Virus record (IMG/VR): IMGVR_UViG_3300019873_000005
Location: 1 to 24,017 of that record
Strand: one strand, 5' to 3'
Length of the DNA stretch: 24,017 nucleotides
From: a virus
Part shown: positions 9,579 through 23,951 of the stretch, piece after piece
How the letters are laid out: each line of letters opens with the position of its first letter
Position numbering within the stretch: the first letter of the stretch is position 1
The notes under the pieces: model-generated
Databases searched by the model: none
Told to the model about the DNA's origin: nothing
Seen by the model: the letters and a program-made list of their open reading frames with translations, nothing else
Position numbers and translations under genes: made by a program

Positions 9579-10346
9579 ATGGCAAAGCAGTCAGGCTTGG
9601 GCGACCAGCTCTTCATCGGTGGCTACGACATCGGTGCGGACACCGCGTCCATCGGCACAATCTCGACCCCCAGGGCGACGCTCCCCTCCACCGGGATCAC
9701 CGCCTTCGCAAACGAGAGGATGTTCGGTCAGCGGGACGCGAACGCGGAGTTCACCACGTACTTCAACCCCGGCCCGGTCGGCGGCCCGGTCGACAACGAG
9801 CACAAGGCCCTGAGGGGTCTGCCGTACACCGACACGCAGCTCATGTACCTGCGCGGCTCCGGCCTGGGTAACGAGGCGTTCTCCATGGTCGCCAAGCAGC
9901 TCAACTACGACCCGCAGCGGGGTGACGACGGAGCCCTGACGTTCGGTGTCAGCGCCCAGTCGAACGGCTTCGGTGCCGACTGGGGCTACCAGGCGACGCC
10001 TGGTAAGCGTTCGGACACCACAGCCACGAACGGCACGTCCATCGACCTCCTGGTCGGCTCTTCATCGTTCGGCTTCCAGGCGTACCTCCAGGTGTTCAGC
10101 TTCACCGGCACGTCGGTGACGATCAAGCTCCAGGAGTCGTCGGACAACGCGGTCGGTGACCCGTTCGCCGACATCACCGGTGGCGCTTTCACCGTGGTTT
10201 CCGCGGCGCCCACCTTCGAGCGGATCCAGTCGGCCTCGGCGACGCAGACGGTCGAGCGGTACGTCCGGGTGATCACCACGGGGACGTTCTCCCAGTGCTC
10301 GTTCGCCGTTACGTTCACCCGCAACGACGCTGCGAGGGTCCTGTGA
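9579..10346 (+). CDS. Tail-tube-family protein with extra C-terminal beta domain
   Basis: This 255-residue protein starts MAKQSGLGDQLFIGGYD. Residues up to about 135 resemble a tail-tube subunit, with TGI ... ER ... FNP spaced as in the shorter MAKQSGL protein at 10784, and KQLNYDPQRGDDGALTFGV. Residues about 150-255 form a second domain (FGFQAYLQVFSFTGTSVTIKLQESSDN, then a FSQCSFAVTFTRN end), which looks like a beta-sandwich exposed on the virion. It could be the major tail protein with a surface domain, or a related minor tail protein. AAGGAG lies at 9565-9570. Its stop overlaps the GTG of the next gene. Confidence 0.8.
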   Translation: MAKQSGLGDQLFIGGYDIGADTASIGTISTPRATLPSTGITAFANERMFGQRDANAEFTTYFNPGPVGGPVDNEHKALRGLPYTDTQLMYLRGSGLGNEAFSMVAKQLNYDPQRGDDGALTFGVSAQSNGFGADWGYQATPGKRSDTTATNGTSIDLLVGSSSFGFQAYLQVFSFTGTSVTIKLQESSDNAVGDPFADITGGAFTVVSAAPTFERIQSASATQTVERYVRVITTGTFSQCSFAVTFTRNDAARVL

Positions 10347-10783: not shown

Positions 10784-11194
10784 ATGGCCAAGCAGTCCGG
10801 TCTCGCGTGGTCCACCCTGTCGGTCGACGACAGCGGTGGCACGCCCCGCGATATCCGTAACGACATCACCAACTTCGAGTTCGCGACGCCGCGAGCCGTC
10901 CAGGACGTCACCGGCATCGACAAGTCCGCGATGGAGCGTCTTCTGCTCCTGGCCGACTTCTCGATCACGCTGAACGGCGTGTTCAACCCGACGGCGACCA
11001 CGTCTTCGCACGCGGTCCTGAAGACGGTCTCCTCGACGTCGGTCCTGCGTACGGTCTCGATCACCGTTGCGTCTCAGTCGCTCGCCAACGAGTGCCTGAT
11101 CACCGACTACAACCTGACGCGTTCCGACTCGGGTGAGCTGACCTGGCAGGCGCCGGCAGTTCTGGCCGACGGCACCGTTCCGACCTGGTCGTAA
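10784..11194 (+). CDS. Tail tube protein (probable)
   Basis: This 136-residue protein starts MAKQSGLAWSTLSVDDSGG and contains RDIRNDITNFEF, then VTGIDKSAMERLLLLADFSI and GVFNP, and a closing strand region (NECLITDYNLTRSDSGELTW). This is the pattern of small tail-tube subunits that stack as hexameric rings around the tape measure protein. It shares the first seven residues and the TGI-ER-FNP spacing with the larger protein at 9579. That suggests an ancient duplication, with one copy gaining a surface domain. ATG 10784 lies 3 bases after the previous stop. Confidence 0.82.
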   Translation: MAKQSGLAWSTLSVDDSGGTPRDIRNDITNFEFATPRAVQDVTGIDKSAMERLLLLADFSITLNGVFNPTATTSSHAVLKTVSSTSVLRTVSITVASQSLANECLITDYNLTRSDSGELTWQAPAVLADGTVPTWS

Positions 11195-21300: not shown

Positions 21301-21334
21301 GAAGCCCCCCTCTGGATTACCGGAGGGGGGCTTC
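21301..21334. terminator. Bidirectional hairpin terminator between convergent gene blocks
   Basis: GAAGCCCCCCTC at 21301-21312 pairs perfectly with 21323-21334 (12 bp, 10-base loop). It lies after the last plus-strand gene and abuts the stop of the minus-strand deaminase gene (21336). There is no T tract on either side, so strength is uncertain, but the symmetric placement suits stopping transcripts from both sides. The 68 bases before it (21233-21300) hold no gene that I can see. Confidence 0.8.
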
Positions 21335-21335
21335 G

Positions 21336-21731
21336 TCATGCCTGGCCGGGGTGTCTGACCCGTTCGATGGCGGTGTTCTTCAAGATCTTGAGGCAGCCGC
21401 CGCAGGGCTCGGTTGTCACGTACATCGTGGAGCCCTTGAGCCTCGACCGGTCGGAGACGTCCAGAAGGGCGTTCATCTCGGCGTGGACCGCGTGACAGGT
21501 GCCGGGCCCGGTGTCGTAGCTCGACCCCGGTTCGACGTCACTGGCGCCCCGCGGGCATTCACCCTTGAGGCAGTTCGGGCCGCCGGGGTAGCTGCCGTTG
21601 TAGCCGGCGCCGGCGATCCGGCCGTTCGCGTCGATGATAATCGCCCCGACCTGCCGCCTGGAGCACTCCCCCCGTGTGGCGACAGCTTGAGCCACGAGGA
21701 AGGCCCACTCCTGCTTGGTCGGTCGGGTCAC
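21336..21731 (-). CDS. Deoxycytidylate (dCMP) deaminase
   Basis: This 131-residue zinc enzyme should convert dCMP to dUMP, feeding dTMP synthesis during phage replication. The catalytic site is HAE at 83-85 (Glu85 as proton shuttle) with the zinc pair in PCGGC (C110, C113). Additional Cys/His residues (C23, C54, C59, C79, H80) fit the second structural zinc of phage-type dCMP deaminases. Length is typical. GTG 21731 is chosen because it forms GTGA with the stop of the upstream gene and starts the conserved N-terminal helix. The frame is open back to a GTG at 21770, which adds 13 low-complexity residues. It is the last gene of the minus-strand operon and ends next to the terminator. Confidence 0.93.
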   Translation of the reverse strand: MTRPTKQEWAFLVAQAVATRGECSRRQVGAIIIDANGRIAGAGYNGSYPGGPNCLKGECPRGASDVEPGSSYDTGPGTCHAVHAEMNALLDVSDRSRLKGSTMYVTTEPCGGCLKILKNTAIERVRHPGQA

Positions 21732-21865
21732 TTGCCGCCCCCCTTCGGCTTGTTCCCGCCACCCATGCACAGGAGGAGGATGATCACGATGGCGATGACG
21801 CCGGCACCGCTACCCACGGTTGTGCTGGTGGGCGTCTCGGAGGCGAGCTGTAGCCAGTAGTTCAC
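21728..21865 (-). CDS. Small single-pass membrane protein (45 residues)
   Basis: GTG 21865 overlaps the stop of the upstream gene (GTGA), and its own TGA overlaps the deaminase GTG (GTGA). The N-terminus is polar (VNYWLQLASETPTST). Residues 21-34 (AGVIAIVIILLLCM) form a short membrane helix. The tail is basic and Gly-rich (GGGNKPKGGGK), so an N-out, C-in orientation is likely by the positive-inside rule. The two-sided coupling argues that this is a real gene despite its size. The function is unknown: lysis, membrane targeting of a partner or superinfection exclusion are all possible. Confidence 0.72.
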   Translation of the reverse strand: MNYWLQLASETPTSTTVGSGAGVIAIVIILLLCMGGGNKPKGGGK

Positions 21866-22059
21866 CGGAGCCTCCGCCTGACGGCCTTGATCGCGGTGTC
21901 CAAGCCCCAGATTTCGCCCTGGCGGACCCCCGGCAGGCTTCCGGCCGCACGCTGGGCCCGGACATCCTGAAGGTTCCGGAGCAGCCCCTCCAGGACGATC
22001 TTCACCTCGGACTCCTGAAGCCGGGCGACTTCCTCTTCGGTGTACAGTCGCTCACTCAC
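21862..22059 (-). CDS. Small helical protein of unknown function (65 residues)
   Basis: The protein is predicted to be almost entirely helical: SERLYTEEEVARLQESEVK, then VLEGLLRNLQDVRAQRAAG, a short linker and a basic C-terminal helix (LDTAIKAVRRRLR). GTG 22059 overlaps the stop of the SsgA-like gene (GTGA) and its stop overlaps the next GTG. It has no Cys, no membrane segment and no known motif. The strongly charged amphipathic helices suggest a protein-protein partner. Being coupled to the SsgA-like gene upstream, it could act with it, but that is only inference from position. Confidence 0.8.
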   Translation of the reverse strand: MSERLYTEEEVARLQESEVKIVLEGLLRNLQDVRAQRAAGSLPGVRQGEIWGLDTAIKAVRRRLR

Positions 22060-22478
22060 GAGTTGAGGATCCTTTCGAGTTCGGCGTCGAGCGGGCCTTC
22101 GATCTCCTCTTCACCGAGCTTGACTTCCTCGAACGTAGCGACGAGGAAGTCGTGGACGGTCCGGTAGGTGAGGGCGACCTCGGCGTAGCCTTCGGTGTTG
22201 TCGAGCGACATGATCAGCCGGCCGTGCGGGCCTCCGAGCCTCCGGAACTTCACGTCGCCCTCACCGGTCCACGTGGAGCGGTCGATGCCGGCATCGAGCA
22301 GCTCGCGGGAGAACGTCCAGACGACCGGGGCGTTCTCCGAGTCGAGGTGGTGGAACACCGCGGTGATGCTCAGCGGGTCGGCCTCCGGGTCGTAGATGTA
22401 GTCGACTTTCACCGGGACGCCGGTCCGGGTCTCACCGACCTTTACGATGGTGCCGGCGAGCTCTGCGATGACCTTCAC
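22056..22478 (-). CDS. SsgA-like sporulation/cell-division regulator family protein
   Basis: This 140-residue protein has the size and motif order of SsgA-like proteins (SALPs), which in Streptomyces steer septum formation and peptidoglycan synthesis. Visible matches are YDPEADPLSITAVF (29-42), VVWTFSRELLDAGI (52-65), TGEGDVKF (71-78), a GRLIMSLDNTEGYAEV strand pair (86-101) and a V-H-DFL helix (108-115). The family has no catalytic residues. GTG 22478 is chosen because it lies 1 base after the primase stop with GAAGG upstream and gives the usual start of the fold. The open frame back to 22607 is primase shadow. A phage copy could alter host septation or sporulation. The family call is by eye but fits over the full length. 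Confidence 0.83.
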   Translation of the reverse strand: MKVIAELAGTIVKVGETRTGVPVKVDYIYDPEADPLSITAVFHHLDSENAPVVWTFSRELLDAGIDRSTWTGEGDVKFRRLGGPHGRLIMSLDNTEGYAEVALTYRTVHDFLVATFEEVKLGEEEIEGPLDAELERILNS

Positions 22479-22479
22479 G

Positions 22480-23352
22480 TCAGCCTTCTTTCTGCGCCTG
22501 AACGCGGTATGCGGAGTTGATGGTGCGCTCGATCTCGAAGTCCCCCAGGCCCGCCTGACGGGCTGCGGCGCCCAGAACGTCCTGGGCTTCCTTCTCGGGC
22601 GCGCCATCGCTGTACATCGAGCGTGCGGCCCACAGGAGGGCGTTGTTCCTGTTGCCCTCCCCGGCGTTGGTCACCGATGCGACCAATCCCGACCACGAGA
22701 GGGCGCCTGGCTGGCGGAGACCCTGCGGCCGGACGATCTTCGGCTGGGCGGGCCTCTCGGCGACGAGCTGACGGATCCAGACGGGCGGCAGGGCGAGGGC
22801 GGCATCGTTGGTCACCTGATACGGGCCGGCTTCGTTTATTGAACCGCCGGCCAATACGTACCCGCCCCACTCCCCTCCGTTGCCCCTCACGTCGATCAGC
22901 CCCTTCACGGGTGAAGCCTGCGAGATCTTCGGCCAGGCCGCCGGCCACCGGTAGTAGAGGTGTACCCCGCCGGAGCCCGTCCGAACCGTGTAGGTCTCCA
23001 GATGTTCCGCATGCCCGGCGTGGTCCGACTTGAACCACATCTCGTCGAGGAGCTCCTCCCCGTGAACCAGCGGACCGTACGCCTGGTGCATATACGCCCA
23101 CTCGGTGCCCTGGAGCGCGAACTCCTTCTTGGCCCGGTCGAGGTCGACGACCAGGAGCTGGGACGGCTTGCACGCGACACCGATGTTCGCCTGCGGGTCG
23201 ACCTGGCTCCAGAACTGAAGGACCTGATTGAAGTCGTTGGTCGCCGTCGCCCCCCACTGTCCGGCCATGCGGTGAGGGACCTTCGCCCCGGCCGCCACGG
23301 GGAAAATGTGGAGTCCGAGGGCTTGGGCGCTAAGTGCGTGCTTGAGCATCAT
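22480..23352 (-). CDS. Bifunctional primase/polymerase (prim-pol) domain protein
   Basis: This 290-residue protein should prime or copy DNA in phage replication. The prim-pol domain covers about 1-200: an N-terminal LGLHIFPV strand, GxxP-like AGAKVPHRMAGQW, NIGVACKPSQ, the likely metal-binding pair D70/D72 in VVDLD, H131 in GSGGVHLYYRW and D154-R156 in IDVRGNGG with GGYVLAGGS. The C-terminal 70 residues (GEGNRNNALLWAARSM ... EIERTINSAYR) match the small helical domain that follows prim-pol in many phage primases. There is no helicase domain, so a separate helicase is expected outside the window. ATG 23352 shares ATGA with the protease stop; ATG 23349 is an equal alternative. Confidence 0.9.
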   Translation of the reverse strand: MMLKHALSAQALGLHIFPVAAGAKVPHRMAGQWGATATNDFNQVLQFWSQVDPQANIGVACKPSQLLVVDLDRAKKEFALQGTEWAYMHQAYGPLVHGEELLDEMWFKSDHAGHAEHLETYTVRTGSGGVHLYYRWPAAWPKISQASPVKGLIDVRGNGGEWGGYVLAGGSINEAGPYQVTNDAALALPPVWIRQLVAERPAQPKIVRPQGLRQPGALSWSGLVASVTNAGEGNRNNALLWAARSMYSDGAPEKEAQDVLGAAARQAGLGDFEIERTINSAYRVQAQKEG

Positions 23353-23951
23353 GGGCGGTTGGTCACCAGCTTCTTGAGTCCGGCGATGTCGTACGGTGTG
23401 TACTTCATGGCGGTCGACGGGGTTGAGTAGCCGCCCCAGTAGTCGCCGCACATCAGCGGGTCGGTGCCGGTGAGGTTGCACGGCGTCGGGTGGCCGAGGC
23501 CTACCGCGTGGCCGAGCTCGTGGGAGATGACGTTCTCGCGGTAGGCGGTGTGCGTGCCGGCCCGGAGCTTGTTCGTCCAGTTGACGCCGGACATGTGCAC
23601 CGATGCGCTGGTGCGGAGGTCGCCCAGGGTGCACGCGTACGTGTAGGAGCGGGTGTTGGACGGCTCCAGGCGGATCACGATACGGTGACGCCCGGTCGAC
23701 GTGTAGCCGGGGCACTGGGCGCTCGTCTTGTTGATCGTGGAGGTGTACGCGATGTCGACGCCGGTGTTCTTCTTCAGCTCCGCGGCGGTCAGGCGGACGG
23801 TCGAGGCGAGCTTGTCGCGGGAGTACGTGTCGTAGAACTGGACGGACCACCCAACGGTGTCCAGGTAGTCGCCGTCACCGACGTAGTAGCCGGGCCCGGC
23901 GACCGATGTCGAGGCGAGGGTCAGGCTGACCGCGATGGCTGCGATACTCAT
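23349..23951 (-). CDS. Probable secreted metalloprotease (metzincin)
   Basis: This 200-residue protein has a hydrophobic N-terminus (SIAAIAVSLTLASTSVAG) that looks like a signal peptide without a basic n-region. The zinc motif HELGHAVGLGH (144-154) fits HExxHxxGxxH, with E145 as catalytic base. PLMCG at 166-169 is a likely Met-turn. Four Cys (80, 107, 158, 168) could form two disulfides, as in exported proteins. An Arg/Thr-rich beta region precedes the active site. The size fits small snapalysin- or matrixin-like enzymes of Streptomyces. ATG 23951 overlaps the upstream stop (ATGA) and its stop overlaps the primase ATG. A secreted protease inside a replication operon is unusual. Its substrate cannot be inferred. 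Confidence 0.86.
   Translation of the reverse strand: MSIAAIAVSLTLASTSVAGPGYYVGDGDYLDTVGWSVQFYDTYSRDKLASTVRLTAAELKKNTGVDIAYTSTINKTSAQCPGYTSTGRHRIVIRLEPSNTRSYTYACTLGDLRTSASVHMSGVNWTNKLRAGTHTAYRENVISHELGHAVGLGHPTPCNLTGTDPLMCGDYWGGYSTPSTAMKYTPYDIAGLKKLVTNRP

Follow-up and report, generated by a model that had tools for sequence, protein, structure and literature searches.

A divergent SsgA-like protein encoded beside the primase gene of a Dagobah-like soil phage and its possible role in host septation

INTRODUCTION

SsgA-like proteins (SALPs) are about 130-145 aa long, and their occurrence has been reported as confined to actinomycetes with complex morphology (PMC3814722). According to the title of reference 41 in PMC7650747, septum formation is stimulated by host SsgA. 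In SsgB, a contact between R55 and E120 holds helix 3, and the substitution L96P blocks interaction with both SsgB and SsgA (PMC8061694). The closest described viral system comes from Streptomyces phage Dagobah: a 2020 publication reports an ssgA homologue in its genome and suggests that it manipulates host development (PMC7650747); actinobacteriophages have again been said to carry ssgA (PMC10117723). In the literature searched, no experimental work on any phage SALP was found.

Here, a 24,017-base phage fragment from IMG/VR (the window, meaning the whole stretch analyzed) was compared with Dagobah and with other phage and host SALPs. It belongs to a soil phage that carries its own version of the host protein family that places septa.

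RESULTS

Family assignment and predicted fold

The ORF at 22478-22056 on the minus strand encodes an SsgA family protein. The original prediction had proposed a phage-encoded SsgA-like protein here, leaving the strand unstated, and had named a profile search, a tree with host SALPs, and a structural comparison as suitable checks. Residues 24-124 of the product aligned with positions 2-98 of the 98-position Pfam SsgA profile (PF04686; E 3.7e-17, 62.5 bits, gathering score 25 bits), this being the sole Pfam match in a scan extended to E 1. When run against 14 control genomes, the same profile gave zero matches. Both solved SsgB proteins were matched by phmmer (3CM1, E 1.3e-10; 6SLC, E 4.8e-10), and the length of the product lies within the family range, while PHROGs gave no significant match for the SALP family. 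Two narrower assignments were rejected. Orthologues of SsgB are near-identical within a genus, with at most one residue varying in Streptomyces, and the window SALP is only about 35% identical to Streptomyces SsgB; the closest NCBIfam model, that of the spore-wall regulator SsgD (NF052496 equivalog), was far under its cut-off, scoring 52.8 bits vs. the required 185.

The AlphaFold2 model of the window SALP, built from an alignment with 35 homologues, reached a mean pLDDT of 88.9 and a pTM of 0.80, and its elements follow the SsgB-type order (seven-strand barrel, three helices). All seven significant Foldseek matches in the PDB were SsgB chains (E 2e-10 to 1e-7). Likewise, VIA-align returned Z scores of 18.2 for 6SUJ, 18.1 for 6SLC, and 17.5 for 3CM1, dropping to 9.3 for the next fold, mitochondrial RNA-binding MRP1/MRP2. 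Profile and predicted structure thus both bear out the proposed family membership.

The main SALP motifs, also part of the original prediction, were all recovered: the near-invariant residues P34, W51, R55, G61, G67, G69, D70, and E120 (SsgB numbering) are kept, and in the numbering of the window protein the retained set comprises P35, F42, W54, R58, L60, G64, G72, G74, D75, and E124. E124 is the equivalent of SsgB E120, so that both partners of the R55-E120 contact are intact. Compared with Streptomyces coelicolor SsgB (6SLC) and its Thermobifida fusca counterpart (3CM1), the window SALP is alike in fold and core motifs at 31-37% identity, but it lacks the conserved W74 (R79 instead) and P116, is acidic at the L96 position, and falls outside all host SALPs sampled in the tree described below. 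The acidic residue at that position (E100 in the window, D in four other Dagobah-like SALPs, L in Dagobah) is found in five of the six Dagobah-like SALPs vs. one of 35 sampled host SALPs. Counted as a single clade-level substitution, it is a lead, not proof, for altered partner binding.

Gene organization around the SALP gene

The SALP gene lies in a leftward run that begins with a metalloprotease gene and ends with a dCMP deaminase gene (Table 1). Exactly 1 base separates the Prim-Pol stop (22480-22482) from the SALP GTG (22478-22476), as had been pointed out before, and AGAAGG precedes the GTG. The Prim-Pol start overlaps the metalloprotease stop, and downstream of the SALP gene the two small ORFs and the dCMP deaminase gene are chained by GTGA overlaps. 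This overlapping-gene anatomy supports tight coupling of the SALP to the primase gene and suggests that it is co-expressed with the rest of the run. The hairpin sits between the convergent tail genes and the leftward run. In the window, the SALP gene has no dedicated late lysis cassette beside it.

Table 1. Features of the leftward gene run in the window, listed in run order
Feature	Coordinates	Strand	Basis and remarks
Zincin-type metalloprotease, HELGHAVGLGH motif, signal-like N-terminus	23349..23951	-	Translation; weak sub-threshold peptidase matches
Prim-Pol (AEP) DNA primase/polymerase, weak PriCT-1 match	22480..23352	-	Pfam Prim-Pol E 9.4e-27
SsgA-like protein (SALP) gene	22056..22478	-	140 aa, GTG start; Pfam PF04686, AlphaFold model
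65-aa ORF, homologue of Dagobah HUN42_00028	21862..22059	-	Start shares 4 bases with SALP stop
45-aa ORF, single hydrophobic stretch (membrane-type)	21728..21865	-	4-base overlap with each neighbor
dCMP deaminase, final gene of run	21336..21731	-	PHROG 174 E 1.1e-41; Pfam dCMP_cyt_deam_1 E 3e-21
Strong hairpin, probable two-way terminator	21301..21334	.	-32.1 kcal/mol (minus strand), z -5.25, GC-rich

Synteny with Streptomyces phage Dagobah (MT711977) is evident, with amino acid identities of 77% for the terminase, 70% for the major capsid protein, 68% each for the portal and the dCMP deaminase, and 62-65% for the primase. The SsgA family protein of Dagobah (HUN42_00031) is encoded at the equivalent position, between the Prim-Pol gene and, further along the run, the dCMP deaminase gene, but is just 30-35% identical to the window SALP; with 30% identity, the SALP ranks lowest in conservation among 14 genes compared between the two. 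Whereas primase and SALP genes directly adjoin each other in the window, two small ORFs intervene in Dagobah, whose leftward run also includes a Pup gene and, a few genes upstream of the SALP gene, an endolysin gene. The earlier description of this cluster as a replication operon fits only in part: the run of the window comprises the genes of Table 1, and that of Dagobah the endolysin and Pup genes as well.

Two side observations concern the same comparison. The site directly upstream of the primase gene, occupied in the window by the metalloprotease gene, carries in Dagobah a small ORF and a homologue of the gene annotated there as ubiquitin-like Pup; this homologue (L007:22613-22849, minus strand) lies upstream of the primase gene in Dagobah and four IMG/VR relatives, and none was found in the window. 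On the plus strand, the products of the neighboring genes 9579-10346 and 10784-11194 each match the Dagobah counterpart of the other at 32-34% identity, which suggests that they stem from an ancient duplication, perhaps one involving tail proteins.

SALP genes in other Streptomyces phages

Dagobah-like contigs were located in IMG/VR by capsid and terminase alignments. A PF04686 search of 35 such records gave four matches, in records of 43.7-46.0 kb, the shorter fragments being uninformative on SALP presence. A SALP gene is located downstream of Prim-Pol on the same strand in each of the six Dagobah-like genomes with an identified primase locus (the window, Dagobah, G006, G007, G012, and G013). 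The SALP gene directly follows the primase stop in two of them (the window and G007) and lies ~0.3-1.3 kb away in the other four; the 1-base spacing is thus not general in this group. G014, a more distant relative (terminase 65%, primase ~49%), has primase, Pup, and endolysin genes and zero SALP matches. Zero relatives were returned by IMG/VR pattern scans with the window SALP, the Dagobah SALP, and the primase alignment, and a pattern scan of genome contigs found zero Prim-Pol relatives; the six Dagobah-like SALPs, once aligned, diverge too strongly to yield a scan pattern.

SALPs are also encoded by larger phages. A tblastn search of GenBank phage records with four SALP queries detected them in 30 distinct named Streptomyces phages, namely Dagobah and at least 29 phages of 121-131 kb that belong to the Stanwilliamsviridae where classified. 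All nine larger-phage SALPs that were scanned passed the Pfam cut-off. Annotated records label these genes hypothetical, and those of Ankus, DekoNeimoidia, and Byblos are without annotation; UniProt, however, names the BillNye protein as SsgA family. In BillNye, Wakanda, Jada, Faust, and others of this type, the SALPs are above the PF04686 cut-off and group with the Dagobah-like SALPs in the second tree (below), but they are more acidic than the window SALP and lack the equivalents of G61 and E120. In the Stanwilliamsviridae regions examined, zero primase genes are annotated near the SALP gene, and in some of these genomes Lsr2-like genes are found a few genes away. An IMG/VR scan with the BillNye SALP matched only BillNye's own IMG/VR copy.

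A protein of Streptomyces phage Ibantik (BFVD A0A2U8UNC9) resembles the modelled SALP in structure (Foldseek E 5.5e-5, TM 0.55-0.63) and is possibly a further phage SALP. GenBank record MT838510, a 5.2-kb 'Bacteriophage sp.' sequence from human faeces, contains a gene whose SsgB-like product shares 44% identity with Streptomyces SsgB; the record could be bacterial sequence wrongly labelled as phage.

Phylogeny and selection

In a first tree, built without the four new IMG/VR SALPs, the window SALP was placed with the Stanwilliamsviridae copies and the Dagobah SALP with Geodermatophilaceae SALPs; with these fewer sequences, the placement of the window SALP was unstable. AU tests on this tree rejected zero alternatives (p 0.36-0.45), and the idea that the window SALP replaced the copy seen in Dagobah was dropped on this ground. 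A second tree comprised 54 sequences (16 phage, 35 host, and 3 plasmid SALPs). A single branch (97/84) separated all 16 phage SALPs from every host and plasmid SALP; within the phage set, the six Dagobah-like SALPs grouped together (97/48), as did the Stanwilliamsviridae SALPs (99/91). This comparison with host SALPs, another of the checks named in the original prediction, argues for a phage SALP lineage rather than a recent capture, with the reservations that the tree has long branches, that its host SALPs come mainly from a few genomes, and that the first tree, in which the six-member Dagobah-like group did not hold for Dagobah and the window, gave a different arrangement. The window SALP is close to no single host paralogue. 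SALP genes are also carried by Streptomyces plasmids, and all three plasmid SALPs examined group among those of hosts.

Within the second phage group, dN/dS values of 0.05-0.27 were obtained, and these SALPs are kept by purifying selection. Between the window and Dagobah SALPs, dN/dS was 1.33; positive selection was not accepted from this value, given an alignment at 30% identity and extreme codon bias (GC3 0.89-0.93).

DISCUSSION

Produced together with the primase, early or mid infection, a SALP of this phage lineage would make protein-protein contacts, through its SsgB-like fold, with host SALPs, FtsZ, or the peptidoglycan machinery. Being divergent, it could compete with SsgA and SsgB or build faulty complexes; such interference would delay developmental septation and leave hyphae open and phage-permissive. 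It is tentatively proposed that the phage SALP acts through these host contacts, most likely by interfering with SsgA-SsgB septation. The effects suggested in the original prediction, a block on septation or sporulation or a change in the wall ahead of lysis, are compatible with the gene anatomy, and the sequence by itself points to neither inhibition nor stimulation. Interference is considered somewhat more likely than stimulation, its near rival. It fits the reports that Streptomyces sporulation helps to hold phage infection in check and that ssgB, whi, and other developmental genes undergo early repression in infected cells (PMC10117723). It also fits the hindrance of mycobacterial septation by a WhiB-like protein of phage TM4, in work cited in PMC7650747. 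A bolder version is rather unlikely: in it, an old phage SALP lineage, unlike all host SALPs and present in two unrelated phage groups, would serve specifically to inhibit the developmental septation that depends on SsgA-SsgB, and would thereby counter sporulation as an antiviral escape.

The phage SALP might instead have a positive effect, as SsgA or the SALPs of the spore wall do, and cause extra septa, wall remodelling, or hyphal fragmentation; before lysis, this would make the wall weaker or disperse fragments that carry the infection. Host SsgA has the effect on septa cited above, so that a phage copy could do likewise, and the intact R/E pair and most core residues leave room for positive action. 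Early sporulation is induced by some Streptomyces phages (PMC10276819). The endolysin gene in the Dagobah run, the secreted-type metalloprotease gene in that of the window, and the SsgD model as nearest, if far sub-threshold, NCBIfam relative point the same way. However, the SALP gene sits among primase and nucleotide genes rather than beside a late lysis cassette, and its sequence resembles no one host paralogue in particular; stimulation is possible, if somewhat less likely than interference.

An action on nucleic acid rather than on septation is improbable. Here the SALP would have turned into a protein that binds single-stranded nucleic acid in support of the neighboring primase, by means of the whirly-like fold common to SALPs, MRP1/MRP2, and PBF-2. 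The order of the two genes in the window and G007 is consistent with such a role, as are the VIA-align score for MRP1/MRP2 and those for WHY2 (Z 8.2) and PBF-2 (Z 7.9), but unrelated OspE folds reach scores equal to that of WHY2, and the Pfam scan gave SsgA only, with no Whirly or ssDNA-binding profile, so that the likeness is one of fold alone. Despite this fold, the acidity of phage SALPs (net charge -13 in the window, -8 to -28 in the others examined) disfavors nucleic-acid binding, as do the primase gene of G014, kept with no SALP match, and the Stanwilliamsviridae SALP genes, with no primase annotated nearby. Still less probable is that a host gene was acquired recently and neutrally and has no present function. 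Capture would be easy, as SALPs are numerous in Streptomyces (10-17 per genome in three genomes examined) and occur on plasmids, and divergence has been fast (identity to the Dagobah copy is less than half the 65% of the primase). Conservation across the six syntenic genomes, a clade apart from host SALPs, intact core residues, and purifying selection in the other phage group all argue against it.

If interference with septation is the correct reading, a phage protein aimed at sporulation would link development with antiviral defense, given that sporulation contains infection. More generally, a conserved phage SALP lineage would mean that viruses handle the septum-placing machinery of sporulating bacteria, and phage SALPs would offer a natural probe of FtsZ recruitment by SsgA and SsgB.

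No report was found of a conserved SALP slot in Dagobah-like phages, of unannotated SALPs in many larger Streptomyces phages, or of phage SALPs grouping apart from those of hosts. The phage SALP itself is a kind already known through the 2020 description of Dagobah, of which the window provides a new member, and the SALP gene now seems to be regularly present in two Streptomyces phage groups.
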